A stretch of DNA of 40,025 nt from positions 1 to 40,025 of the forward strand of contig MIAA01000039.1 of the NCBI GenBank assembly GCA_001830425.1, in the 5' to 3' direction. Shown here one piece after another: positions 1 through 39,361 of the stretch. The notes beneath the pieces were generated by a model. It did not search any database. It saw nothing but the letters and a program-made list of their open reading frames with translations, and was not told where the DNA came from. A program made the translations under genes and the position numbers. Numbering within the stretch: the stretch's first letter is position 1; the number at the start of each line of letters is the position of its first letter. Source of the stretch: Rhodospirillales bacterium RIFCSPLOWO2_02_FULL_58_16. Its GTDB lineage: Bacteria; Pseudomonadota; Alphaproteobacteria; Rhodospirillales; 2-02-FULL-58-16.

Positions 1-57
1 CGTCGTCGCGGTGGTCGCCGTCGTCGCGGTTGTCGCGGTGGTCGCGGTGGTGGCCGT
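1..57 (-). repeat. 9-bp tandem repeat coding Ala-Thr-Thr
   Basis: About six units of GCG-ACN-ACN (minus strand) encode (Ala-Thr-Thr)n inside the truncated adhesin gene. The third codon positions vary between units, so the repeat is imperfect at DNA level but perfect at protein level. It continues past the left edge. Confidence 0.85.
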
Positions 58-558
58 GTACGGCTCCGGAGGATTAGTTGGGCTAGGCTCTTCTCCTTCA
101 ATGCCCGGAGGAGGCGTGGGCAGAGGAGGTGGAGCGATAATGGGGTCGGGGAACGGCCCTACCTCGGGCTGGGAAAGGTCTATAGCCGCTTCGGGAAGAG
201 GAATTCCGACATGAGGGATGGGAGCCTGGACGCCATCCGTACCTACGGCAATGTTGGGAAGAACAGGGTTGTCGCCGATCCCGGCGCGATCAATTCCGAG
301 GTTGCTGTCGGTAAAGGCGCCGAATTGTTCAGCCCGGATAATCCGCGCATCTACGCCGCCATCGCCGGTTTGGAGGTTTTCAAATCCCGAGTTATCGGCA
401 GCGCCCGGAGCGCTTCCGGAACTTTCAGATGCGTCAAGGGGCTTGTCGCCACTGTCCTGGCTGAGCGACGTCAGATCATCGAACACCTGCGCCTCGCCGG
501 CGCCGGGAGCGCTGCTCTGAGCTATTCCGCCTTGGGTTGTACCGTTATCTTCAGCCAT
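1..558 (-). CDS. Large repetitive surface protein/adhesin, N-terminal part (3' end beyond window)
   Basis: Reading the minus strand from the ATG at 558-556 gives 186 codons with no stop before the window edge, so the gene is cut off. A strong Shine-Dalgarno-like GGAGGGG lies 6-7 bases upstream of the ATG. The first 150 residues are acidic and rich in Gly, Ser and Asp (start MAEDNGTTQG, then VFDDLTSLSQDSGDKPL). A Pro-rich linker follows (PPPLPTPPPGIEGEEPSP), then an alternating Ala-Thr-Thr tract that runs off the edge. There is no Sec signal peptide and no membrane segment. That fits type I secretion substrates, which are exported by a C-terminal signal, and giant repetitive adhesins with a disordered N-terminus. 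HlyD and ABC genes lie 3-8 kb away on the same strand. That it is an adhesin and their cargo is inference; the rest of the gene would decide it. Confidence 0.7.
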   Translation of the reverse strand, partial: MAEDNGTTQGGIAQSSAPGAGEAQVFDDLTSLSQDSGDKPLDASESSGSAPGAADNSGFENLQTGDGGVDARIIRAEQFGAFTDSNLGIDRAGIGDNPVLPNIAVGTDGVQAPIPHVGIPLPEAAIDLSQPEVGPFPDPIIAPPPLPTPPPGIEGEEPSPTNPPEPYTATTATTATTATTATTATT

Positions 559-775
559 GGACCGCCCCTCCAAAAACACATTTCCCTACGATGATTATAG
601 GTTCACCTTAAAGCACTTCCAATCCGGCCAAAGGTTATAGACCGGCGTTTTGCTGTTTTTCAGATTTTTCTGCCTTTTCGGTTGTCGCGGCGGCTGAAAT
701 TGCTATATCTCGAAATCTGAGCTTGGACGTGTGAGCCGCCATTCTTGAAAATAACGGATTCGGACGGATTGTTCC

Positions 776-3328: not shown

Positions 3329-4720
3329 TCAGCGTTCCCGGAAGGCATTGCTTACCGCGTCCGCAACAGGCTTCATGAGGTAATGCAGCATGGTCTTTTG
3401 CCCGGTGGTGATATCGGCTTCGATGCTCATGCCCGGCGTAATATGCAGTTTTTCGGGGTCTTTCCCGACATAGGGCCGGCTGATGCTGACCCACCCCTTA
3501 AAGTAGGCGTCGTGAACCGGGTCCATGCAGACTGTCGATGACAGAGAGGAACATGTGCTGGAGGGGGAAAGCCGGATAAGTTCCCCCTCAACGCCGCCGA
3601 AGCGGGAGTAATCGTAACTTCCGACTTTTACCAACACGGGATGGCCGATGCGAACATACCCGATGTCACGGGGGGATATCCGCACCTCGGCCTCCATATT
3701 GCCGTCGAGAGGAACAACCTTCATCATAATAGCGCCGGGCTGAACCACCTCGCCGACGGTCCCGACCCTCAAATCCTGGACCAACCCGCGCACAGGAGCG
3801 CGCACCTCAAGCCGCTGGACCCGATCCTCCAGACGCGACAAGGAATTGCGGACCTCGGCGATCTCGGCGGAGACTCCCCCCAATTCGACGGAGGCCTCCC
3901 GACGAAGCTGCGCTTCCAGATTGGCGAGATTGCCGTTGCTTTCAACCAGGGACTGAGACGCCACCGAAATTTCATCATTGATGCGCGCCACCTCGCCGTC
4001 GGCGGTTACTTTTGCGCGTTTTGTCTCAAGGTACACCATCTTGGTAATCAGCTTTTTCTCAACCAGCCTTTCACGCATTTTAAGCATGTTTCCGGTCAGT
4101 TCCTGGTGCTGAAGGGCAATAGTCAGCGATTCTCTGAGCTGCCGAATTTCCCGCTTCCTTTGCTCGATTTGAGATTTAATTACCGATGAGCCGGTAGCAA
4201 GGGCGCCGAGTTGATCCCGCAAAATCTTCTCCTGGTCGGCGACAAGCTCGGGGTATTCATCGCCGATCCCTTCAAAATCAAGCGGACGGCCCTCGTTAAA
4301 TGCCGCCAGACGTTCGGCGCGAAGGCGCAGCGCCGCGTACCTGACCTGCATCTGCTTCAGTTCAGCCTTGGACTGCGCTCCGGAAAATCTGGCAAGCACC
4401 TGGCCGTCTTCCACCATCGTGCCTTCCTTGACGAGGATTTCAGAGACCACTCCGCCCTCAAGATGCTGCACGACCTTGACCAGAGCGCTGGGAACCACCT
4501 CGCCTTGAGCGATGGCAACCTCGCTGACCTCAACCAACGCCGCCCAGACGATAAAGAGGATAACCAGCGCGGATATCCCCAAAAGAGCCGAATGAATGAA
4601 CTCGGGGATGATTTCCTCTTCAAGCTGAATCGCTTCGGAAAGCAGACGCTTGGTCCGCTTGCCCCTGACTATCGTCTGTCCGTTGGGCGTCCGGTCTTTC
4701 GTCATACTCATCGCGGTCAT
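3329..4720 (-). CDS. HlyD-family membrane-fusion protein of a type I secretion system
   Basis: The 463-residue protein would be the periplasmic adaptor linking an inner-membrane ABC exporter to an outer-membrane channel. A short cytoplasmic N-terminus is followed by one membrane segment at about 44-64 (ALLGISALVILFIVWAALVEV). A half-lipoyl motif follows (QHLEGGVVSEILVKEGTMVEDGQVLARF, about 85-112), then a long heptad-rich coiled coil to about 290. The second half-lipoyl part (RLEVRAPVRGLVQDL) and the beta-barrel come next, and the end TGQKTMLHYLMKPV is typical of the family. The length is normal. Two Cys (in STCSSLSSTVCMDP) sit in a short loop where most relatives have none, and could form a disulphide. 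The start codon overlaps the stop of the upstream transporter gene by one base (TAATG), so the two are translationally coupled. Confidence 0.93.
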   Translation of the reverse strand: MTAMSMTKDRTPNGQTIVRGKRTKRLLSEAIQLEEEIIPEFIHSALLGISALVILFIVWAALVEVSEVAIAQGEVVPSALVKVVQHLEGGVVSEILVKEGTMVEDGQVLARFSGAQSKAELKQMQVRYAALRLRAERLAAFNEGRPLDFEGIGDEYPELVADQEKILRDQLGALATGSSVIKSQIEQRKREIRQLRESLTIALQHQELTGNMLKMRERLVEKKLITKMVYLETKRAKVTADGEVARINDEISVASQSLVESNGNLANLEAQLRREASVELGGVSAEIAEVRNSLSRLEDRVQRLEVRAPVRGLVQDLRVGTVGEVVQPGAIMMKVVPLDGNMEAEVRISPRDIGYVRIGHPVLVKVGSYDYSRFGGVEGELIRLSPSSTCSSLSSTVCMDPVHDAYFKGWVSISRPYVGKDPEKLHITPGMSIEADITTGQKTMLHYLMKPVADAVSNAFRER

Positions 4721-7700
4721 TATCGAAGCCCTCCCATGACGGTATCCTTGATGCTTTCAAACGGCCCCATCGCCTGGATCGCTCCCTGTTCCATATATAT
4801 CACCTTATCGGCAAGTTTGAGGTGACTGGGACGATGCGAGACCAGGAATATGGTCGACCGCCCCCTTATCTGCTCCAGAGCGTTAACAAAGGCCCGGTCG
4901 CCGTCCGCGTCCAGCCCGTTGCCGGGTTCGTCCAGCAACATGACAGGGGCTTGCTTGAGAAAAGTCCGGCACAACGCCAACCGCTGCCTGAACCCGTTGG
5001 GAAGCTGGTCGGAACTGGATTCCCCGATGCGCACGTCGAACCCGCTGCGCCTCCATTTGCCCTTCCCTTGTTCAAGAGCCAGCACATCATCAAGCAGCCC
5101 GGACATTTTGGCCGCCCAGCGAAGATCGTCATCGCTTGCCGTCGGGTGAACCAGCCTCAGGTTCTGGGCGATGGTGCCGTAGAAAATATCACAGTGCTGC
5201 GGCATGTAGCTTACCTGCTTCCTCAGATCCTCGGGGGTAAGCTGGCGAATATCCACGCTATCAAGCCGAATGCTGCCGGCCTGCGGGTGATAGGCGTGGA
5301 CAAGCAGTTTAAGAAGAGTCGATTTGCCGGACCCGTTCGGCCCCGCCAAGGCGACGATCTCTCCCGGCTTGATGGTAAAGGTGACCCCCAGCAACGCCGG
5401 ATCGGCGCTCATTGAATAGCGGAACGATACACGCGAAAAAGAGACCTCGCCATGGACAAGAGGGCGAACCGTCTGTTTCGTGCTTTCATCCCGCTCGCCC
5501 TTAAGACGCATGAGGTTGTCGATCTGGTTTAAACTGTTAAGCATGCGAACCAACGTAGAAGCCGCCATGAAGGCGCTCTGTAACGGCCCGGTCACCCGCC
5601 ACATGATGATCATCGTGGCGACGACGGCGCCGCCGCTGATGATGCCGTTCATAGCCGCAATAACGACAACGGTCATCGCCGCCAGACCTGATATGGAAGA
5701 AATAAACTGCGCGGCGGCCGAGACCTGTTCACTAAACTGTTGCGCTCTGAGATCGCTCAGGATCGCTTCTCCCGAAAGTGCGCGGAACCGTTCCTGCCAG
5801 CGGCCATGCGCCCCCGAGATGCGGATGGTTTGAATGTTATCCAGCGTCTCCATCAGAAACTCATTCCGACGCGAAACAAGACGCATGGCCGCAGTGGTCC
5901 TGCGTCCCTGGGAACGGAAGGTCAAGGCCCCAAGAAAGGCGTAAGCCGCCGCCGACGCCAGAATAACTATAAGAATCCAAGGATAGATAACCGCCAGGAC
6001 GACAACATAGACCATGGTCGCCGGCAGATCGTAAATCAGAAGGGAAAGCGGGCCTAGGAAAAAGTCCCTTAGCGACTCAAGGTCCTTGATGCGGGCAACC
6101 TGTTCCGACACGGATACCCGTTCGACGGATTGAGAGGGCAAGCCGATCACTCTCTGGAATATGCTGTTGCCGATAATGTACTCGCTTCTTCCCGCCATGA
6201 AAGAAAGGACGCGGCTTTTCAACGAGCGTATTACCCAGTCCAAAGTCAAAGCGATCACGACGCCGAGCACCAAAAAGCCCTGCATCTCAAAATTACCCGT
6301 CGGCAAAACATGGTTGAAGGTGCCCATGACGAACATGGGCGTCGCCAGGGTAAGTATCGTGCTCAGGATGGTAAGGCCCATGACAAAGGCGATAAACGTC
6401 TTGAACCGCCTGAATATGCGGGAGGTCCAGCTTTCAGTCTCGCCCGCCTTCGGCGCATCGGAACGCTCGACCTTCTTGAACATGTAGGCATTGCCGCGCT
6501 CAACGGATAAGGCGCCGGTTACCACCGCAATGCTGTCGCTGTCAAAGTAGGTAAAGCTGTCCTTCCCGTTCCTGGAGAGGACCACCTTCGCCCCCTCGGT
6601 ATCCGGAATGAACAGACAGGGAAGCAATCTGCTGTCAATATCATTGGGACTGGTTTGGTAGGAACTGCTCTGGAAATCAAGGTTCGCCATTATGCTGCGG
6701 AAGCCGGAAAGATCAAGACTGTCAACCAGATGAGGAAGCGACTCCGTCAATTGCCGTGGCGACCCATGCCAGTTCAAGGCGGCCAGCATAGTCGGAAGGC
6801 AAAGGGAAAAATCAGACGTACTGGGAAAATGCTGGAGGGCGTCGGCCAGCTCCCACTCATTAATATTGGGCGGCGTCAGGCTTTCCTCGACTTTTCCCTC
6901 GCTGTTGTTGCCCCATAAATCAAGGTTGTCTATATCAGCCTCTTCGAGTTTGCCGCCCTTAAGGGTGAAAACCCGATCAGAGAGCCGAATCAGGGTCGGC
7001 CTGAGAGTGATCAAAACAATCGTGCATTTGCCTTTCATCGATTCCAGATACTTGCGCAGGAGATTGTCCCCCGCGCCGTCAATGGCGATGTTGGCCTCGT
7101 CAAACAAGATAATCCTGGGGCCATGCACGATGGCGCGGGCGATGGCGATCCGCTGAATGACCCCCGCCGGCACGGAATCGACGGCGCCCTCGCCGATCAG
7201 CGTCTCGTAACCCATGCGCATGCCGGCCACCACCCGGTCAAGCCCCACCAGCTCCGAGGCCTTGATCGCCGCGTCGGTAAGGCTGTCGTCAAACATAGTG
7301 ACATTTTCCAGGATCGTCCCCGTCATTACCACTCCCCGCTGGGGAAGATAGGCCACGGAAGCATGCAGGGTTTTGGGATCGATATCTTTCACCGGAACGC
7401 CGTCAATAAGAACCTCTCCCTCGTCCGGGGCGAGGATGCCGTTAAATATGGAAATCAGGCTGGTCTTGCCGCATCCGCTATCGCCGACTATCGAGATACA
7501 TTCGCCGGGGGAAACGGCAAGATTAAGGTTCTCAAAAAGAGGAGATTCAGACCCCGGAAAATGAACCTTAACATTCTTCAGTTCTATCCCGCCCTGTATT
7601 TTCGGGCATTTTTCAAAAACGCTGGAACTCATGGAAGGAAGAGCGAACAACGCCTTCATCCGTTGACGGGAAATGGCGAAAGTCTGATACCGCATCCAGA

Positions 7701-8634
7701 CCGAAAGGCTGTTCCGCAAGGGCTGCAAGGCGCGAATCGACAACATCACGCAGGCGGCCAGACTGCCCGGAGTCATGTCGCCGTCAACAACGATCACCGA
7801 ACCGGCGGCGACTACGCCCACGGTAATAATCTGCGTAAACATGGCTCCCATGTTGGCCGCGACCGTGCTGTCGTGAGTTACGCTCGAACCCTTGTCCACA
7901 TTGGTTTCCTGAAGCCGCTCGTAGCGGCGGTGCATCAAGGTCTCCATGGCCATCGTCTTCACCGAATGAATGCCGTGGAAGGTCTCCGACAGGAAGCTGT
8001 AACGGCGGTCATCCTGCATGATGCGGTCTTCAATCCGACCCTTCAGCTTCCGTCCGACCATCAACGAAATGGTCATGAACATAATCAGCATGGCCAAAAC
8101 AACTCCGGCAAGCCACCCGGCGATCAGGCCGATAACCGCCAAATAGATAACGACAAAAGGCAGGTCCAGCAGGACAAGGATGGTCTGGCCCGAAGCAAAA
8201 TCCTTCACCTGCCCCGCCGAACGCAGCCGTTCGTAATGAATGCCTGATTCAACCGACGTGTATTCACGAAAGGGAGTTCCCATCAGGTGCTTCAGCCCCT
8301 CCATGCTGACGCGGTGCTCGAACCTTGATCCCACCCACCCCGTAACGTAACCGCGCAAAACACGCAGCATGGTCTCCAGGAAAACGGCGATGACAACGCC
8401 GAAGACGATCAATCCCAGAGTCGAATAAGATTGATTGGGAATTATGCGGTCATACATCTGCAAGAGGGACATCGGCATTGCCAATGCCAGCAAATTCATC
8501 ATAAGGCTGGCCATAACCAACACGGAAAATGAACCGCGCAGACTTGAAAAATCTCTCAGCCGAATCGTCGTGGATTCCGACTCAACGGTTTTTTCGTGCT
8601 TTGTCCCGGATGTCGCCATTGCCTCGGATACCAT
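4720..8634 (-). CDS. Type I secretion ABC exporter, two complete half-transporters fused
   Basis: The protein has 1304 residues, about twice the usual size. Half 1 has a membrane domain (about 35-315) and an ATPase with Walker A GDSGCGKTS (384-392), signature-like VPAGVIQR (488-495) and Walker B IILFDEA (508-514). At the H-loop it reads ITLRPTL (542-548), where ITHRPSL is usual, so the catalytic His is Leu544. A degenerate C39-peptidase-like domain follows (about 592-720). Half 2 has a membrane domain (about 740-1035) and an ATPase with Walker A GPNGSGKS (1098-1105), signature LPNGFRQR (1211-1218), Walker B VMLLDEP (1231-1237) and an intact H-loop His1267. Both signatures deviate from LSGGQ. 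The layout suggests a covalent heterodimer with one weak and one active ATP site, exporting the repetitive protein at the left edge. The start ATG 8634 has weak ribosome-site support; ATG 8619 is possible. Confidence 0.9.
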   Translation of the reverse strand: MVSEAMATSGTKHEKTVESESTTIRLRDFSSLRGSFSVLVMASLMMNLLALAMPMSLLQMYDRIIPNQSYSTLGLIVFGVVIAVFLETMLRVLRGYVTGWVGSRFEHRVSMEGLKHLMGTPFREYTSVESGIHYERLRSAGQVKDFASGQTILVLLDLPFVVIYLAVIGLIAGWLAGVVLAMLIMFMTISLMVGRKLKGRIEDRIMQDDRRYSFLSETFHGIHSVKTMAMETLMHRRYERLQETNVDKGSSVTHDSTVAANMGAMFTQIITVGVVAAGSVIVVDGDMTPGSLAACVMLSIRALQPLRNSLSVWMRYQTFAISRQRMKALFALPSMSSSVFEKCPKIQGGIELKNVKVHFPGSESPLFENLNLAVSPGECISIVGDSGCGKTSLISIFNGILAPDEGEVLIDGVPVKDIDPKTLHASVAYLPQRGVVMTGTILENVTMFDDSLTDAAIKASELVGLDRVVAGMRMGYETLIGEGAVDSVPAGVIQRIAIARAIVHGPRIILFDEANIAIDGAGDNLLRKYLESMKGKCTIVLITLRPTLIRLSDRVFTLKGGKLEEADIDNLDLWGNNSEGKVEESLTPPNINEWELADALQHFPSTSDFSLCLPTMLAALNWHGSPRQLTESLPHLVDSLDLSGFRSIMANLDFQSSSYQTSPNDIDSRLLPCLFIPDTEGAKVVLSRNGKDSFTYFDSDSIAVVTGALSVERGNAYMFKKVERSDAPKAGETESWTSRIFRRFKTFIAFVMGLTILSTILTLATPMFVMGTFNHVLPTGNFEMQGFLVLGVVIALTLDWVIRSLKSRVLSFMAGRSEYIIGNSIFQRVIGLPSQSVERVSVSEQVARIKDLESLRDFFLGPLSLLIYDLPATMVYVVVLAVIYPWILIVILASAAAYAFLGALTFRSQGRRTTAAMRLVSRRNEFLMETLDNIQTIRISGAHGRWQERFRALSGEAILSDLRAQQFSEQVSAAAQFISSISGLAAMTVVVIAAMNGIISGGAVVATMIIMWRVTGPLQSAFMAASTLVRMLNSLNQIDNLMRLKGERDESTKQTVRPLVHGEVSFSRVSFRYSMSADPALLGVTFTIKPGEIVALAGPNGSGKSTLLKLLVHAYHPQAGSIRLDSVDIRQLTPEDLRKQVSYMPQHCDIFYGTIAQNLRLVHPTASDDDLRWAAKMSGLLDDVLALEQGKGKWRRSGFDVRIGESSSDQLPNGFRQRLALCRTFLKQAPVMLLDEPGNGLDADGDRAFVNALEQIRGRSTIFLVSHRPSHLKLADKVIYMEQGAIQAMGPFESIKDTVMGGLR

Positions 8635-8730
8635 GGTTGCCGATTAAAACAACAAACCCCGTAAATAGCCGATGCCGGCTTAATTTATTATTACTAAAAT
8701 TAATTATGAAGATATAATACTAAATAGCCT

Positions 8731-8840
8731 TAAAGAGTGACTCGTCTAGGGCAAAAAAATCCTCCCCCTTTAGAAGGGGGAGTTAGAGGGGGTATCGGAA
8801 GCAACCTCCCCTGCCCCCTCCTTGGTAAGGAGGGGAAAGT
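8731..8840 (+). repeat. Dispersed palindromic repeat, copy 1 (modules A and B)
   Basis: It begins with TAAAGAGTGACTC, then hairpin A (CTCCCCCTTTAGAAGGGGGAG) at about 8762-8782, then hairpin B (CCCCTCCTTGGTAAGGAGGGG) at about 8815-8835. The same leader and both modules recur at 37155-37270. A leader plus module A recurs inverted at 37411-37463, and both modules in the opposite order at 39568-39643. Confidence 0.85.
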
Positions 8841-8889
8841 GTCGGGGCCGCCACGAGTCAATAACGCTAACCTCGGTCTTTATAGCCTG

Positions 8890-10005
8890 ATGACGATCCC
8901 TTTGACCATAAGAGTTATGCGCCGCCTGCTGGACCTGTTGCGCCGGATCAACCGCCGCGTACCCTTTCCCGAACTACGCGAGAGCAATCAGGTTACTCTG
9001 AGCCAACTCGACAGCGTCTATCAGAAAGCCGGAGCATGGTTCCGGTTTGTCGAGACGCTCGACCATCGCCTCTTGTCGTCGGACAATGCGAGGCGGCGAG
9101 CAGAGAAGCAGGCCTTGTTCAAGGCCCATGTTCGCGTTATCGAATTCGAGCCTCACGCATATTGCAACCGCAAATGCCCGTTTTGTTCCAATGCCGTGGC
9201 GGATCGCACGGACATCAGGGAAATATTCGACTTCTCAATGTTTCTGCATGCGCTTGGAGAACTGCGAGAAATTGACTATGACGGCCTTGTCCGCTTTGCC
9301 CGCTACAGCGAACCCCTGGCTTGCCCGGATATTGACCGCTTTGTTTTTGAAACGCGCAAAGCATTGCCGAAAGCTGAAATCGACATTGTGAGCAACGGCG
9401 ATTACCTTGACGCCACACTTCTGGACAAATTGTCCGCGTCCGGCCTGTCCACCTTACGCATCAGTATTTATCCCGCAGGATACGGTTGGTCTCTTGACGC
9501 CGCCGCCGAGCAGATGAACAAGCTGTGCGCGCGCATTAACATTTCTCCCCGCCGGACGTTTATCGACAGGGAAAGGATCAACTGGACGATACCGCATGAC
9601 AAAATCGCCATCTTCGTCCAGGCCGTCGACCTGGATACTGTCGGCTACGACCGGGGGCAGACGCTTGATCAACTGACTGATAAAGACTTTTCCCGCGTTA
9701 CCCCCTGCTCTCTTGTGTTTGAGAACGTCACCGTAGATTACAACGGCCTTGTCATGCCCTGCTGCAATCTGCGCAGCGATATTGCGGCTCATCTCCCCTT
9801 TGTCGCGGGAGATTTGAAGCAATCGGCAAGCTTGTTCGATATCTACGATTCGCCGGCGATGGCCGAGTGGCGGGCTTCGCTCGTTCGCGTCGAAAGAAAG
9901 ACGCCGCCATGCCGAAGCTGTAAACAAAAGGCGTTATCTTCTTCCATTGCGCATTTCGCCCTGCGACTGCGCATAGAGGGAGCTTTGAAGAATAAGCGTC
10001 CGTGA
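8890..10005 (+). CDS. Radical SAM/SPASM-domain protein of unknown substrate
   Basis: From the ATG at 8890 the protein has 371 residues. CNRKCPFC (C92, C96, C99) is the CX3CX2C cluster that binds the [4Fe-4S]-SAM centre. The C-terminal region has TPCSLVFENVTVDYNGLVMPCC and PPCRSC, a SPASM-type auxiliary cluster pattern. SPASM enzymes modify peptides or act on sugars and cofactors; the substrate cannot be told here and no small precursor peptide is visible nearby. The frame is open back to a GTG at 8737, but that would translate straight through the palindromic repeat at 8731-8840, so I reject it. ATG 8917, with a weak AAGAG upstream, is an alternative start. No signal peptide is seen. The gene stands alone, with the Fur-family gene 84 bases downstream under its own promoter. 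Confidence 0.85.
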   Translation: MTIPLTIRVMRRLLDLLRRINRRVPFPELRESNQVTLSQLDSVYQKAGAWFRFVETLDHRLLSSDNARRRAEKQALFKAHVRVIEFEPHAYCNRKCPFCSNAVADRTDIREIFDFSMFLHALGELREIDYDGLVRFARYSEPLACPDIDRFVFETRKALPKAEIDIVSNGDYLDATLLDKLSASGLSTLRISIYPAGYGWSLDAAAEQMNKLCARINISPRRTFIDRERINWTIPHDKIAIFVQAVDLDTVGYDRGQTLDQLTDKDFSRVTPCSLVFENVTVDYNGLVMPCCNLRSDIAAHLPFVAGDLKQSASLFDIYDSPAMAEWRASLVRVERKTPPCRSCKQKALSSSIAHFALRLRIEGALKNKRP

Positions 10006-10736: not shown

Positions 10737-10929
10737 TGTTGGGTGTCCTCCGACAGTCAGGTCCTATCGACAGGTCATCCGCCTCGATTGCCGCCAGGCG
10801 TATCAATGCGCCAAGGCGTTCCATGCCGATTGCTTCAGCCTCGCTCTCAAGGTAGCGCAAAGCCCGGGAAATCGCCTCGGACACTTCCTTGGGTATTTCC
10901 TCTATTGGATATTTTTGACTAGTGCTCAC
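10720..10929 (-). CDS. Small uncharacterised protein translationally coupled to luxI
   Basis: 69 residues. It starts with GTG at 10929-10927, overlapping the luxI stop TGA as GTGA, a classic coupling arrangement. It is predicted helical and acidic in the middle (VSEAISRALRYLESEAEAIGMERLGALIRLAAIEADDL), with a basic tail (RRTPNNGKRK). I do not recognise the family. The coupling implies production in proportion to the AHL synthase. A role in signal synthesis or receptor control is inference. Confidence 0.65.
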   Translation of the reverse strand: MSTSQKYPIEEIPKEVSEAISRALRYLESEAEAIGMERLGALIRLAAIEADDLSIGPDCRRTPNNGKRK

Positions 10930-11567
10930 GCCGCCTTCTCCATTGATTGTTCGAGGATAGTTTGCGCTGTTCGTAAAACAGGGTGATTGATTTTCGTGCG
11001 CTCGCGGACGCGCATCAGAGTTTCTTGGGATATATTCACCCTTCCGGCCGCGACCGGTTCCCCATTTATTTTATGGGGTTCGCCCAGGAATTCATACGGC
11101 CAGCCGGAGCGCCCGAAAACGGCTTTCCAGACGATAATCGGCATAATTCCGATGATTTGCTTGATCCCGTGAAGGATGCTGAATTCCAGGTAGGCGCATA
11201 AGAGTTCCCCCAGCACCCTCTTACGCTCGACAAGCGTTAAGCCATTATCAATGCCGAAACGGGTGCCTTCCCATACTTCATCGGATGAGGGCAGTGTGAT
11301 GTTGGTGACCATGTCGGGCCATTGCTCTTCAAGCATGTACGGCAAACTGGTCGGATAAAGTCTGGATACGCCCCGCGCCGCGCCGGTTTTATCCCGCCAG
11401 ATCAGGTAAGTGGTTGCAGGTGAATCGTATTGGTCAAACTCCATGCCGTGATATGTTGGAATTTTCCAGCCTTGGCGTTCAATAAAAATTCGGTGGCGCA
11501 ATCTGTGCTGTGAAGCGATGGCGTCGCCGAAAAAATGCGATGTCTCAAGGTTCACACAATCGATCAT
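10926..11567 (-). CDS. luxI: LuxI-family acyl-homoserine-lactone synthase
   Basis: The 213-residue protein would make an N-acyl-homoserine lactone from SAM and an acyl donor. The invariant family residues are visible: R24, F28 and W34 in RHRIFIERQGW, D45 and D48 in FDQYDS, R69 in GVSRLYP, and E100, R103 and F104 in WEGTRFG. The ATG at 11567 is chosen because GGGGGGCA lies just upstream and the LuxI core begins right after it. The frame stays open for another 23 codons upstream, but that stretch overlaps the lux-box region. It follows luxR on the same strand with a 99-base gap holding a palindromic operator, and is coupled to a small ORF at its 3' end. The acyl chain specificity cannot be read from the sequence. 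Confidence 0.92.
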   Translation of the reverse strand: MIDCVNLETSHFFGDAIASQHRLRHRIFIERQGWKIPTYHGMEFDQYDSPATTYLIWRDKTGAARGVSRLYPTSLPYMLEEQWPDMVTNITLPSSDEVWEGTRFGIDNGLTLVERKRVLGELLCAYLEFSILHGIKQIIGIMPIIVWKAVFGRSGWPYEFLGEPHKINGEPVAAGRVNISQETLMRVRERTKINHPVLRTAQTILEQSMEKAA

Positions 11568-11627
11568 AACTTTGCCCCCCTTGCCGTCGATGCCGAAGAG
11601 GGAAGCAGTTATTTCAACGCGAATCAG

Positions 11628-11645
11628 CCTACGCACCTGCGTAGG
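11628..11645. promoter_or_regulatory. lux-box-like palindrome upstream of luxI
   Basis: CCTACGCACCTGCGTAGG is a perfect 8+8 bp inverted repeat with a 2-bp centre, 60 bases upstream of the luxI ATG and just downstream of luxR. Size, symmetry and place match binding sites of LuxR-type dimers. LuxR autoregulation of luxI is inferred. Confidence 0.7.
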
Positions 11646-11666
11646 ACGGTGGAAAATATGGTGAAA

Positions 11667-12389
11667 TCAGATGGTTATGAGTCCAAAGTAAAGCGCCTTA
11701 ACGACCGCAGTAATGCGTGATTCGGCGTTCAGCTTGCTCAGGATGTTGCGTAGGTGAAAGTCCACTCCATGTTCCGAGATGTGGAGAATCTCGCCGATGG
11801 CCCAATTGCTCTTGCCTTCCTTGCACCACTGCAAAACCTCGCGCTCGCGTGGGGTCAGGCGCACCGGCGGCCGCGCCCTTTTCTCAATCTCAAGATGGGC
11901 CATATATACGGTGTGGAACTGCACTGTCAGCAAGTGAATGGCGCTGAGGTGCTCTTTGGGATCAACGCCGCCGGTGCTGCTGGCAAGCCCAACGCCAACA
12001 ACTTCGCCGAAGGGACCATGAAGAGGTACGCCGATGCCATTATGCAGCCCGGCTTCCCTCCCCCCGTTCATAACGTCCTTTTGTGCGGGGGACAGTTGCA
12101 GCTTTTCTTCCATTCCCTCCCAAGTGAACGGTCCTCGCGTGGCGATGCCGTATTTCCTGACCGGGTCTGTTTGTATGTATCCCTTCTCCACATAATGGTT
12201 AATCCAGTCGTCGGGATAGTTTCGCATGATGCTGGGAGTGGATATGCTGTCGTGGGCGGGATGGCGCGTCAGAGCGCTATACATAATGCGGTCGAACCCA
12301 TAGTAGGCTACAGCCTTTTCATAAAGGTGGAAAACCTCCTCCGCGCTCTTGGCGGCGTTGGTGGAATCGATAAATTCCGAAATTCGCAT
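11667..12389 (-). CDS. luxR: LuxR-family autoinducer-binding transcriptional regulator
   Basis: 240 residues. The N-terminal autoinducer-binding domain has the conserved ligand-pocket residues W62 and Y66 (DWINHY), D75 and P76 (TDPVRK) and W90 (FTWEGM). The C-terminal GerE-type helix-turn-helix (about 175-235) reads LTPREREVLQWCKEGKS through SEHGVDFHLRNILSKL. The full set of ligand residues and the adjacent luxI indicate a genuine AHL receptor rather than an orphan. It probably binds the palindrome at 11628-11645. The upstream region (12390-12500) is very AT-rich. The module differs in base composition from the GC-rich flanks, in keeping with acquisition by transfer. Confidence 0.93.
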   Translation of the reverse strand: MRISEFIDSTNAAKSAEEVFHLYEKAVAYYGFDRIMYSALTRHPAHDSISTPSIMRNYPDDWINHYVEKGYIQTDPVRKYGIATRGPFTWEGMEEKLQLSPAQKDVMNGGREAGLHNGIGVPLHGPFGEVVGVGLASSTGGVDPKEHLSAIHLLTVQFHTVYMAHLEIEKRARPPVRLTPREREVLQWCKEGKSNWAIGEILHISEHGVDFHLRNILSKLNAESRITAVVKALYFGLITI

Positions 12390-35369: not shown

Positions 35370-37142
35370 ATGCATACAAGGCGGATACCAAGCGACAAAC
35401 CGGACGTTGCCGCCCCTATTGCCGAAGAGCAACCCCACCGGCTTTCCCCACGCCAAAAAGATATCCTCTCCCTTCTTCAGGAAGGGAAGGCCAACAAGGA
35501 AATTGCCCGTGAACTCGGGATCGGACTGGGAACGGTCAAGCAGCATGTCGTCGCCCTGTTCAAGAAGCTGAACGTCACCAACAGAGCCATGGCCGTATCC
35601 AAGGGCTTTACGGCCAAGGACGCCACTCCGCCCCTAAAAACGGCGAATGAAGGGACGATGGATATTGAAACCGCCCTGGAGCGGCGTCCCGCCACGGTGC
35701 TGAGCCTGCTTCCCGAGAAAGAACTGCAAACCGCCGATCCGGATTTCCAGCGTACGCTCTATCGGGCGCTCTCCGAGGTGGCTTTTGATTTCGATGCTGT
35801 TTTATTCGCCAACCGGCACGGCGGCGGCGATATGGTCTTCGGAGTAGAGAAAACCCGTGAACACGACGTGCTCAGGGCCGTTCGCGCCGCCATGTCGGCC
35901 GCCACCTACGTTGCGGCCCTGAGCGGCAACGCAGTGTCTCTGCGCGGCGGTCTTTCCAGCGGAGTCGTCGTCGCCAGCATGGAGAGAACGGGAACATGGT
36001 CCGGAGAAGCCATTGCCGGATCGGTGATCGCCCTGACGCGGGAGTTGGCCGCCGAAGCGGCGCCCGGAACCCTGGCCCTTGGGGAGTCATCGCGCCGATT
36101 GATCCACTTCCTCGGCGCTGAACGTGACGGAGAAGTTCCTAAAATAGTTCCCTTTACCCGTACTTTCCAATGGCAGCTTTGCGGACGAAGACTCGAAACG
36201 CCCTTGCGGGGACGCCGCGCCGAGATAAAGACCATGAAAGCGTGTCTGGCCGATCTGGCCAACGGCAAGGGTGGCGTCATACTCCTGGAAGGGGAAAGCG
36301 GCATCGGCAAATCAGCTCTGTTGTGGAGCTTCATTGATCGTTGCGCCGACTATGAAATTTCAGTCTTGATGAAAACCTGTCCCGCGCCGGACAGCCAGCC
36401 GTCGGGCCATTTGACGGGTTGCCTGATCCGGCCCGGAACAAGCGAAAGCCTTCCCGTAGCCAAGTTCAAAGCCTCCTTGATCAAGGCCCCTCCGAAAAAA
36501 CCGACGGTGATAATCATCGACGACACCCATTTTTTACCTAAAGAAGCGATTGATGATCTTTCTTCCCTGCTTCAAGGCATGGCGGGAGCGCCGGTTCTGT
36601 TTGTATTGTCCGGGCGCGCCCACTCCGGTCTGCCCGTTGAAATCAAAGACCGGGCCACGAGCATACGACTGAAGCGCCTTGCTGAAAATCATATAACGGA
36701 AATACAGAAGAATTGGCTCGGCCCCGCGTTTTCCGAAGCGTTGGGGATTTGCCGTCTGGCTGCGGGCGTCCCCGTTTTCGCCGTTGAACTTGCGCGACAT
36801 TACCGCGACCACGGTCTGGCCGAAAACGCCCCCGATCGACGCCTCTCTATTCCGCTAAGTCTCTTTGCCCTGGTGATTGCGCGCGTCGACTCGTTAAGCC
36901 TTGACCGGCAACTGTTGCGATTGACGGCGAACAAGGAAGGCGAGCATCGCCGCGACGACCTTCTCAAACAATGGCGAGGCGATGAAACTGAACTGGATAC
37001 GGCTATTGAAAAGACAATCAACGCCGGCCTGTTGCGGCGCATAAATTCCACGAACGGCAAAAACGAAACCATCGGTTTTTGCCATCCGCTGGTCCACGCC
37101 GTCGTGAGCTTCGCCATGAAAACTCCCGACCGAACCAAATAA
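35370..37142 (+). CDS. Multidomain regulator: N-terminal LuxR HTH, cyclase-like domain, AAA ATPase
   Basis: 590 residues. A GerE-type helix-turn-helix sits at the N-terminus (about 24-80: LSPRQKDILSLLQEGKANKE, TVKQHVVALFKKLNV). Next is a domain with the outline of a class III nucleotide cyclase (about 105-247: ATVLSLLPEKE, LRGGLSSGVVVASM, AAPGTLALGESSRRLI). It lacks the usual catalytic metal and Asn residues, so it is probably inactive. Then comes an AAA/STAND-like ATPase with Walker A GESGIGKS (308-315) and Walker B VIIIDD (380-385). The usual STAND regulator carries its HTH at the C-terminus and a long repeat sensor; here the order is reversed and the sensor is missing. It likely couples ATP or partner binding to DNA binding. 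The target is unknown. Confidence 0.85.
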   Translation: MHTRRIPSDKPDVAAPIAEEQPHRLSPRQKDILSLLQEGKANKEIARELGIGLGTVKQHVVALFKKLNVTNRAMAVSKGFTAKDATPPLKTANEGTMDIETALERRPATVLSLLPEKELQTADPDFQRTLYRALSEVAFDFDAVLFANRHGGGDMVFGVEKTREHDVLRAVRAAMSAATYVAALSGNAVSLRGGLSSGVVVASMERTGTWSGEAIAGSVIALTRELAAEAAPGTLALGESSRRLIHFLGAERDGEVPKIVPFTRTFQWQLCGRRLETPLRGRRAEIKTMKACLADLANGKGGVILLEGESGIGKSALLWSFIDRCADYEISVLMKTCPAPDSQPSGHLTGCLIRPGTSESLPVAKFKASLIKAPPKKPTVIIIDDTHFLPKEAIDDLSSLLQGMAGAPVLFVLSGRAHSGLPVEIKDRATSIRLKRLAENHITEIQKNWLGPAFSEALGICRLAAGVPVFAVELARHYRDHGLAENAPDRRLSIPLSLFALVIARVDSLSLDRQLLRLTANKEGEHRRDDLLKQWRGDETELDTAIEKTINAGLLRRINSTNGKNETIGFCHPLVHAVVSFAMKTPDRTK

Positions 37143-37543: not shown

Positions 37544-39361
37544 ATGGGCAGAGCATCGAAATGGGGCATGTTTTTACTATCCCTTTCAGTTGCCGGTTGC
37601 GCGGTCAAGCGCGACAACTACGCTATTCCCGAAGTGGAATTGCCGGTTTCCTATCGCCATAACTCCGGTGAAAAATCCGAGACCGAATCAACGCCGGGGC
37701 AAACGGCCCCCATGACCGTTCCCCAGGCCGTTTCCAAATGGTGGACCCACTTCGGCAACGACGAACTCAACGGTCTGGTCGAAGGAGCGCTCGCCAACAA
37801 TCACCAGCTAAAGGCCGCTATCGGCCGCATCGCCGAAAGCAAGGCCCAATGGGGGGCAATCAAGGCCGACCAATGGCCGGTGTTAAGCACCTCGGCGAAG
37901 GAAGACATCACGGCGCCGAGAGACGGCAAAGGCGACGTAAAGCCGGGCGGTAAAACCATATCCGAAAAGAACTACGACCTGGGTCTGCAAATCAGCTACG
38001 AAGCGGACTTCTGGGGCAAGAACAGCGCCGCCAGCGAAGCCGCCTACAATACGGCATGGTCCAGTGTTTTTGCCCGTGAAGTCGTTGCCCTGACCCTGAC
38101 CTCAAGCATGGTCCAGAACTTCATTAAATACCTTTCCTTTAATGACCGGATTCAAACGGCCAAAGATACGGAGCGCGTCTATAAGGACATGTTGCAGGCC
38201 GTCATTGACCGCCTGGACGACGGCGAAGCGACTTCCTTGCAGATCGCCCAGCAGAGGACCGCCGTTTTCGCCGCTTCCGCCGTTATCCCCGTGCTTGAGC
38301 TGCAACGCGAGCAAGCGCGGAACTCTATCGCCCTGCTCATGGGCAAGGCGCCTTCCGAGGTCAACCTCCAAAGCGACAGCCTCGACGACATTGTTTTTCC
38401 CGAGGTGAAGCCGGGCCTGCCTTCGCGGCTGTTGCTGCGCCGCCCGGACATCCGCAAAGCCGAGACCGAGCTTATCGCCGCCGACGCCTCCATCGACGTG
38501 GCGCGGGCCAGCCTGCTTCCCACCTTCAAGTTGACCGGCGACTACGGCTACGGCAGCCATCACCTCAGCTCCCTGCTTTCTCCTGAAAGCCTGTATTACA
38601 ATCTGGCCGTCAGCATTACCCAGGCGATTTTCGACGCCGGTAAACGCGAAAGCCAGGTGGACTTCGCAAAAGCGCGGCATGAGGTCCTGGTGCAGACCTA
38701 CATGGAGACCGCGTACACGGCCCTGAAAGAGGTGGAGGACGCCCTGGTCTCCATCCGTTTCCTTACCTTGCGCAAGCAAGCCCAGGAGGAAGCCGTCGTC
38801 GCCGGCGGCAATGCGTTTGAACTTTCCACCACTTCCTATACCGTCGGCACCCTTGACTTCCTTACTCTTCTCGACACGGAGCGCACGATGTTCCGCGAAG
38901 AGGACCAACTGCACCTGATAAAATTCGAGCGTCTACAATCCGCCGTGGACCTGTTCAAGGCCCTCGGCGGCGGCATGGAATCAGACGACGCCAAGATGGT
39001 GGCCGCCGCTGACAAAGGGGAAAACCGCACCACGCTTGACGGCAAATACGCGACCGACGAAGAGCCGCAAAGCCCCGAAGTGAACCATGTGCCGAGTCTC
39101 CCCGAAAAAGAAGGGTTCTGGGTTCAGCTTGCCGCCACCTGGAGCGAGTCCGCCCTTGAACGCCACTGGCGCCTGCTCAAGACCCGCTACCCCAATGTGC
39201 TGGAGAATATATCTCCCACCTTCCGCAGGGAAGGCGTCCCCGCCGAGAACGAGAAATGGTACACCATGCTGGTCGGGCCTTTCGAGCAAAGAAACAACGC
39301 CGATGGGCTTTGTGTTTCCTTGCGCAATGAAGGCCAAGGCTGCCATGTTCTGGTGCGCTGA
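37544..39361 (+). CDS. TolC/NodT-family outer-membrane lipoprotein with C-terminal SPOR domain
   Basis: 605 residues. The signal peptide ends in lipobox VAGC with lipid-bearing C19 (MGRASKWGMFLLSLSVAGC). The outer-membrane efflux repeats follow: WWTHFGNDELNGLVEGALANNHQLKAA, YDLGLQISYEADFWGKNSAA, SRLLLRRPDIRKAETELIAADASIDVA and LKEVEDALVSI. From about 524 to the end is a SPOR domain (GFWVQLAATWSESALERHW, WYTMLVGPFEQRNNADGL), which binds denuded septal peptidoglycan. SPOR on a channel protein is unusual. It would be the exit duct for an inner-membrane pump; no pump is adjacent, so the HlyD/ABC pair at 3329-8634 is the candidate partner by elimination. The ATG follows AGAAGGATG. Confidence 0.92.
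   Translation: MGRASKWGMFLLSLSVAGCAVKRDNYAIPEVELPVSYRHNSGEKSETESTPGQTAPMTVPQAVSKWWTHFGNDELNGLVEGALANNHQLKAAIGRIAESKAQWGAIKADQWPVLSTSAKEDITAPRDGKGDVKPGGKTISEKNYDLGLQISYEADFWGKNSAASEAAYNTAWSSVFAREVVALTLTSSMVQNFIKYLSFNDRIQTAKDTERVYKDMLQAVIDRLDDGEATSLQIAQQRTAVFAASAVIPVLELQREQARNSIALLMGKAPSEVNLQSDSLDDIVFPEVKPGLPSRLLLRRPDIRKAETELIAADASIDVARASLLPTFKLTGDYGYGSHHLSSLLSPESLYYNLAVSITQAIFDAGKRESQVDFAKARHEVLVQTYMETAYTALKEVEDALVSIRFLTLRKQAQEEAVVAGGNAFELSTTSYTVGTLDFLTLLDTERTMFREEDQLHLIKFERLQSAVDLFKALGGGMESDDAKMVAAADKGENRTTLDGKYATDEEPQSPEVNHVPSLPEKEGFWVQLAATWSESALERHWRLLKTRYPNVLENISPTFRREGVPAENEKWYTMLVGPFEQRNNADGLCVSLRNEGQGCHVLVR

Follow-up and report, generated by a model that had tools for sequence, protein, structure and literature searches.

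Two unlike type I exporter halves in one chain: a candidate heterodimeric secretion engine from a Rhodospirillales genome

Mechanistic accounts of type I secretion start from HlyB-like engines, which are homodimers. A gene at 4720-8634 on the minus strand of a contig from Rhodospirillales bacterium RIFCSPLOWO2_02_FULL_58_16 (MIAA01000039.1, 40,025 nucleotides, the whole stretch being called the window here) raises the question of whether such an engine may also be a heterodimer carried by one polypeptide. A first-pass annotation, made from the letters alone, had seen in its product two ATP-binding cassette (ABC) exporter halves with asymmetric ATP sites. We read it as a probable single-chain heterodimer in which site 2 would hydrolyse ATP and site 1 would mostly bind it, and which would export an RTX protein; the probability that we give to this reading is about 0.66.

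The open reading frame (ORF) runs from an ATG start to its stop without interruption and encodes 1304 aa. Pfam recognises ABC_membrane (PF00664) and ABC_tran (PF00005) twice each, all above cut-off, and each half thus has an exporter-fold transmembrane domain (TMD) followed by a nucleotide-binding domain (NBD), as first annotated. The two halves are 19% identical in the TMD and 28% in the NBD. Half 1 (about residues 31-564) is without an N-terminal extension, and half 2 (about residues 600-1297) opens with a domain of some 135 residues. Scored singly, the halves reach 406 and 435 bits with TIGR03375 (cut-off 693), 330 and 272 bits with TIGR01846 (cut-off 726), and 319 and 298 bits with TIGR01842 (cut-off 510), so neither half alone attains the cut-off of any of these curated NCBIfam subfamilies. 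Membership of TIGR03375 from the 833 bits of the whole protein was rejected, as this score is the sum of two halves which are each below the cut-off. The degenerate C39-like domain that had been proposed between the halves was modelled separately (residues 586-735; predicted local distance difference test score, pLDDT, 78.5; predicted template modelling score, pTM, 0.74), and the top structural matches of the model are all C39 or C39-like (3b79, 3zua, HlyB 7sgr and PCAT1); a PDB sequence search with the region gave no real match. The catalytic Cys position holds Phe, Leu or Ala in the half-2 family, which is not the state of a PCAT/AMS peptidase. Since this Cys is absent, the domain is, as far as the modelled fold indicates, of the docking type and is predicted to be peptidase-dead.

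Fused and split relatives

Besides the window we collected 19 unbroken fusions, as the count of natural fusions proposed in the first-pass annotation. Their open frames are 1293-1441 aa long, including any untranslated upstream stretch, and the halves meet at the same junction in all of them, with linkers of 17-56 aa. Their sources are Alphaproteobacteria, Methylococcaceae, other proteobacterial families and Desulfonatronum. Among full-length relatives the nearest (L051, a Rhodospirillaceae metagenome-assembled genome) is 58% identical; others are found in Candidatus Methylobacter titanis (L050), Desulfonatronum (L052), three more genomes of the same order (L054-L056), Azospirillum plasmids (L081 and L082) and eleven further loci in other proteobacterial genomes. 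In an even phylum sample, 13 of 398 genomes, the present one included, carry an unbroken fusion at E <= 1e-190, and a class sample of 385 genomes gave two unbroken fusions along with two loci having an in-frame stop between the halves. A single family contributes matches at E <= 1e-190 in 9 of its 18 genomes. The closest family homologue (L053, genome G004, contig C60) is in two frames (6486-7451 and 7436-9922) and is cut off by the end of its contig; it is either a pseudogene or a draft error. The first-pass annotation would have yielded to many well-described homologues of the same length; homologues are indeed numerous, but none was found described, the open literature giving no description of a fused type I ABC (subscription papers lay outside the coverage). 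The plasmid records label the protein as an 'ATP-binding cassette domain-containing protein'.

In 26 loci the same halves are encoded by two neighbouring genes, their order unchanged, as against 20 loci in which they are fused. The gene ends of the split pairs mostly overlap or nearly do so, and in four loci (L084, L085, L088 and L089) nothing but one stop codon interrupts a common frame through both halves, a natural intermediate between the split and the fused form. A protein pair that is found both fused and as neighbours is a classical sign of joint function. The occurrence of this pair in both forms therefore argues for an obligate ABC heterodimer, and from these gene arrangements the fusion is a pair of obligate look made covalent. 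The covalent heterodimer of the first-pass annotation gains from these 26 loci, and also from the bias between the halves, which is always in the direction of a relaxed half 1 and a conserved half 2. Some loci differ in their details: L061 and L062 have 1.2-1.4 kb of extra sequence between the halves, and in L070, L071, L074 and L075 half 1 has a long C-terminal extension. On a quick maximum-likelihood tree of both halves the fusion state changes at least 2 times, and a single fused clade is not rejected by the approximately unbiased test (p-AU 0.41). The clade of the window transporter also contains Gammaproteobacteria and one member of Desulfobacterota, hence the fused gene has probably moved between phyla.

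Two unlike ATP sites

The residues quoted for the asymmetry (K390, L544, K1104 and H1267) were all read correctly in the first place. K390 and K1104 are the Walker A Lys of NBD1 and NBD2, the catalytic Glu is present in both (E513 and E1236), and the H-loop position holds Leu544 in ATPase 1 and His1267 in ATPase 2. Also, neither signature loop is LSGGQ, as had been noticed, being V488-P-A-G-V in NBD1 and L1211-P-N-G-F in NBD2. On comparing 47 half-1 and 47 half-2 sequences, the H-loop His was found in 43 of the 47 second halves (the remaining four have Gln) as against 14 of the 47 first halves, 33 having lost it. The Walker A Lys is kept in 43 and the Walker B Glu in 45 of the first halves, the latter also in all 47 second halves, and at the A-loop aromatic position half 1 varies and half 2 always has Tyr. 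The signatures are non-canonical across the family, mostly LPxG[VI] in half 1 and L[SP]x[GS][FLM] in half 2; in 26 LssB, HlyB and PrtD references, of which the same genome supplies two, the motif is LSGGQ or one of the near variants LSRGE, LSSGQ, LSGGE and ISGGQ.

Leu544 itself is not conserved. On the tree the residue at the half-1 H-loop position changes at least 17 times and the half-1 His state at least 10 times, against 3 changes of the His state in half 2. In 971 of 990 locus comparisons, which are not independent but uniform in direction, NBD2 shows higher conservation than NBD1, and the TMDs show the opposite trend, TMD1 being more conserved than TMD2. It may be noted that the split pairs show the asymmetry too, so it is not a product of fusion; judged from these comparisons, NBD1 is relaxed both before and after fusion, and the asymmetry precedes it. 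That fusion causes the loss of the H-loop His was considered and is unsupported, as split pairs also lose it and the independent pairs are too few.

In the engine that we propose, two different ABC half-transporters joined in one chain would form the inner-membrane part of a type I secretion system. Half 1, which lacks a C39-like domain, would pair with half 2, which has the peptidase-dead one, to give two ATP sites, each composed of parts from both halves. The likely hydrolysing site is site 2 (Walker A/B and His1267 of NBD2 with the VPAGV signature of NBD1). Site 1 (Walker A/B and Leu544 of NBD1 with the LPNGF signature of NBD2) would most likely bind ATP and hold the dimer closed, hydrolysis there being most likely poor or nil. 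We infer this division of a binding-only and a hydrolysing site from the relaxed NBD1 together with the behaviour of HlyB H662A, in which the ATPase activity is <0.1%, yet ATP binding and NBD dimerisation are retained (PMC6222333, PMC5018854).

In full-length human exporters the degenerate site is always nucleotide-binding site 1 (NBS1), with an altered NBD2 signature and usually with loss of the Walker B Glu as well (PMC7756269). Here the NBD2 signature is altered and the NBD1 H-loop His is replaced, but the Walker B Glu of NBD1 is present. Likewise, Walker A, Walker B and His of NBD2 are intact at the second site, but the NBD1 signature that completes it is not canonical. With both signatures non-canonical and the half-1 catalytic Glu kept, the fused transporter is, by its motifs, not a textbook degenerate-site exporter. 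Thus the division into one regulatory and one catalytic site, as first annotated, was drawn too clean: the one-sided bias is in line with it, while the kept Glu and the two deviating signatures are not, and a clean split is best called plausible from the motifs.

Several observations weigh against the proposed engine. Glu513 is intact and Glu is the rule in half 1, unlike most known degenerate sites; site 2 is also non-canonical by its signature; and the half-1 His is present in L051, the nearest full-length relative. An AlphaFold model of the whole chain (residues 103-1302, from a shallow 4-row alignment) failed with pLDDT 50.6 and pTM 0.30 and was not used for pairing within the chain. Also, the genes for the channel and regulator described below lie 27-30 kb from the transporter in the window.

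The strongest rival for the engine keeps the covalent heterodimer but gives it two working ATP sites, with the half-1 H-loop change tolerated or compensated and the halves differing for docking of adaptor or substrate. The kept Walker A Lys and catalytic Glu of half 1 are in its favour, as is the half-1 His of L051, L052, L054 and L055 among the 14, and H-loop mutants are not always dead, as in the controversial Pdr5 results cited in PMC6222333. However, the nearly inactive H662A mutant belongs to HlyB, the closest characterised exporter, and NBD1 is systematically less conserved than NBD2 despite the reverse order of the TMDs, so that we hold two working sites to be unlikely, though worth keeping in mind. 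Far less probable is a functional unit of two 1304-residue chains, that is four halves paired like with like. The usual type I exporter is a homodimer and the model does not resolve intramolecular pairing, but adjacent one-to-one gene pairs and the short linkers fit one heterodimer, and the motif losses sit in half 1, which means that like-with-like dimers of half 1 would carry two defective sites. An assembly artefact or misread stop joining two genes can practically be dismissed in spite of the draft genome, the contig edge at which the window begins and the frameshift inside half 1 near a contig end in L053, because 19 further unbroken fusions share the junction, one of them from another phylum and many from families that are not related, and this rules out a missed stop or frameshift between the halves as a general explanation.

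Neighbouring genes and the exported protein

The coordinates of the transporter, its parts and its neighbours are collected in Table 1.

Table 1. Features of the window discussed in the text
Feature	Position	Strand	Remarks
N-terminus of likely RTX substrate	1..579	-	MAE..DDLTxL motif, Thr-Thr-Ala repeat, cut by contig end
Nucleotidyltransferase-like and APH kinase-like protein, 799 aa	776..3175	+	
HlyD-family periplasmic adaptor, 463 aa	3329..4720	-	TIGR01843 356 bits, cut-off 209
Fused type I secretion ABC transporter, 1304 aa	4720..8634	-	TMD1-NBD1-linker-C39-like-TMD2-NBD2
TMD2-NBD2 of half 2, residues 736-1297	4744..6429	-	
His1267 codon, NBD2 H-loop	4834..4836	-	His in 43/47 half-2 homologues
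C39-like domain, about residues 600-735, without catalytic Cys	6430..6837	-	
Half 1, residues 31-564, TMD1-NBD1, without N-terminal C39 domain	6943..8544	-	TIGR03375/TIGR01846/TIGR01842 matches, all below cut-off
Leu544 codon, NBD1 H-loop position	7003..7005	-	His in 14/47 half-1 homologues
LuxR-type helix-turn-helix and AAA ATPase regulator	35370..37142	+	
Outer-membrane factor, NodT/TolC type, C-terminal SPOR domain	37544..39361	+	

The start of the adaptor gene overlaps the transporter stop by one base (TAATG), and the transporter is genetically linked to a HlyD-type adaptor and an RTX substrate, as is usual for a type I secretion ABC transporter. In six loci of family f225 (L136-L139, L143 and L144) two HlyD-like adaptor genes are present near one fused transporter, with no adhesin beside it. 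The substrate frame at the contig start encodes MAE..QVFDDLTSL followed by the Thr-Thr-Ala repeat. Its N-terminus was compared within its own family, where the DDLT motif opens ORFs adjoining six other fused transporters (L050, L052, L054, L055, L081 and L082) and no ORF beside any split pair. In L050 and L052, too, the substrate frame runs into a contig edge within a repeat of this kind. A repeat-pattern search of the genome gave contig C50, where the stretch 1-1769 opens in the Thr-Thr-Ala repeat and continues with a conserved 118-aa domain, RTX repeats and an RTX-type C-terminus; the 118-aa domain is 79% identical to its counterpart in the L054 protein, the substrate that adjoins the fused transporter in genome G057. 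By this resemblance C50 is likely the other end of the gene, so the cargo would be an RTX protein whose gene starts at window position 579 and probably ends on C50.

The first-pass annotation spoke of adhesin secretion. No adhesin lies within 4720-8634, where the transporter is, and for the RTX substrate we infer a surface or adhesin role. With chances somewhat below even, the system is real and its exported RTX protein is not an adhesin but, for example, a matrix or surface-layer-like protein or an enzyme; the window substrate has the Thr-Thr-Ala repeat, a 118-aa domain without Pfam match, few RTX repeats and no adhesin domain that we could see. On the other side, the Azospirillum fusions adjoin cadherin/immunoglobulin/RTX proteins of 4635 aa and longer, which have the same N-terminal motif. 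The genome also has three Peptidase_C93 (LapG-like) genes (C1:16494, C47:12140 and C27:72612), and two unfused type I ABC transporters of the ordinary kind, in which LSGGQ and His are canonical (C41:15066 and C48:14560), the latter with a 2564-residue RTX frame nearby.

The putative channel protein scores 320 bits with NodT (above cut-off) against 83 bits with the type I TolC model (below). Because it is thus nearer to NodT, its role was taken from synteny: homologues adjoin the fused transporter in L050-L053, and one is also found in L056. The SPOR domain is picked up by Pfam in the proteins of the window, L050 and L052 and not in those of L051 and L056. On this gene order, it is probably the TolC-type exit channel of the system, and the partners of the fused engine would be the adaptor of the overlapping gene and, probably, this SPOR-domain NodT/TolC channel. 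Homologues of the regulator are present near the fused transporter in L050-L055 and in eight of the loci L134-L144. Of 60 relatives exactly 4 have the regulator, and each of these also has a fused transporter, for which the chance is 1e-5 if these were independent, which they are not fully. L052 holds the whole order of regulator, channel, ABC, adaptor and substrate. Between the adaptor and substrate genes lies the 799-aa protein, with a GSDIDLLIE nucleotidyltransferase-like motif and an APH-like kinase domain. One homologue is placed alike in L050 and another lies near the fused transporter of L138, with none in the plasmids; the protein is possibly an accessory that modifies the substrate. 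Upstream of the secretion genes, a LuxI-type autoinducer synthase and an autoinducer-binding LuxR regulator are encoded at 10926-12389 (minus strand), and a Radical SAM/SPASM protein at 8737-10005 (plus strand) is divergent from the transporter.

Comparison with known systems

A natural single-chain heterodimer would fix the pairing and stoichiometry of the halves. Changes of single residues could then probe what each ATP site does, and what one C39-like domain does as against two, a test that no homodimer permits; also, the split relatives allow fused engines to be compared readily with unfused ones, and the neighbour genes point to a candidate regulator and channel. Tentatively, and at odds somewhat short of even, these loci may make up a distinct type I subtype, namely a single-chain exporter hydrolysing ATP at one site within a module of LuxR-AAA regulator, SPOR channel, HlyD adaptor and DDLT-motif RTX substrates, spread horizontally among Alphaproteobacteria, Gammaproteobacteria and Desulfobacterota, with an origin in an obligate heterodimeric pair of which Alphaproteobacteria have many examples.

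Like HlyB, LssB and PrtD (TIGR01846, TIGR03375 and TIGR01842), the present transporter has the TMD-NBD order, a C39-like domain on one half, an adjoining HlyD gene and an RTX substrate, but those are homodimers of about 550-720 aa with LSGGQ, and here two diverged halves share one chain. TAP1/2, TM287/288, BmrCD and CFTR resemble it in the one-sided loss of the NBD1 H-loop residue, the altered NBD2 signature and a degenerate NBS1; it differs from them in the kept Glu of NBD1, the altered signature of the other site and the RTX cargo. In the BapP locus of Pseudoalteromonas tunicata, tandem ABC genes modelled as a heterodimer lie beside a Ca2+-dependent adhesin (PMC12153261), but the genes are separate and include a LolD-like ATPase subunit, so it is probably another ABC architecture. 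Secretion of the Vibrio MARTX toxin requires two different ABC proteins, RtxB and RtxE, for which a heterodimer has been proposed (PMC4316617, PMC3034196); their genes are separate and flank the adaptor gene, no fusion is reported there, and the likeness is one of organisation. The use of an asymmetric ABC in adhesin secretion, which the first-pass annotation took as the new element, is thus foreshadowed by RtxB/RtxE, and what is new is the fused variant with its conserved module and not asymmetric type I secretion as such.

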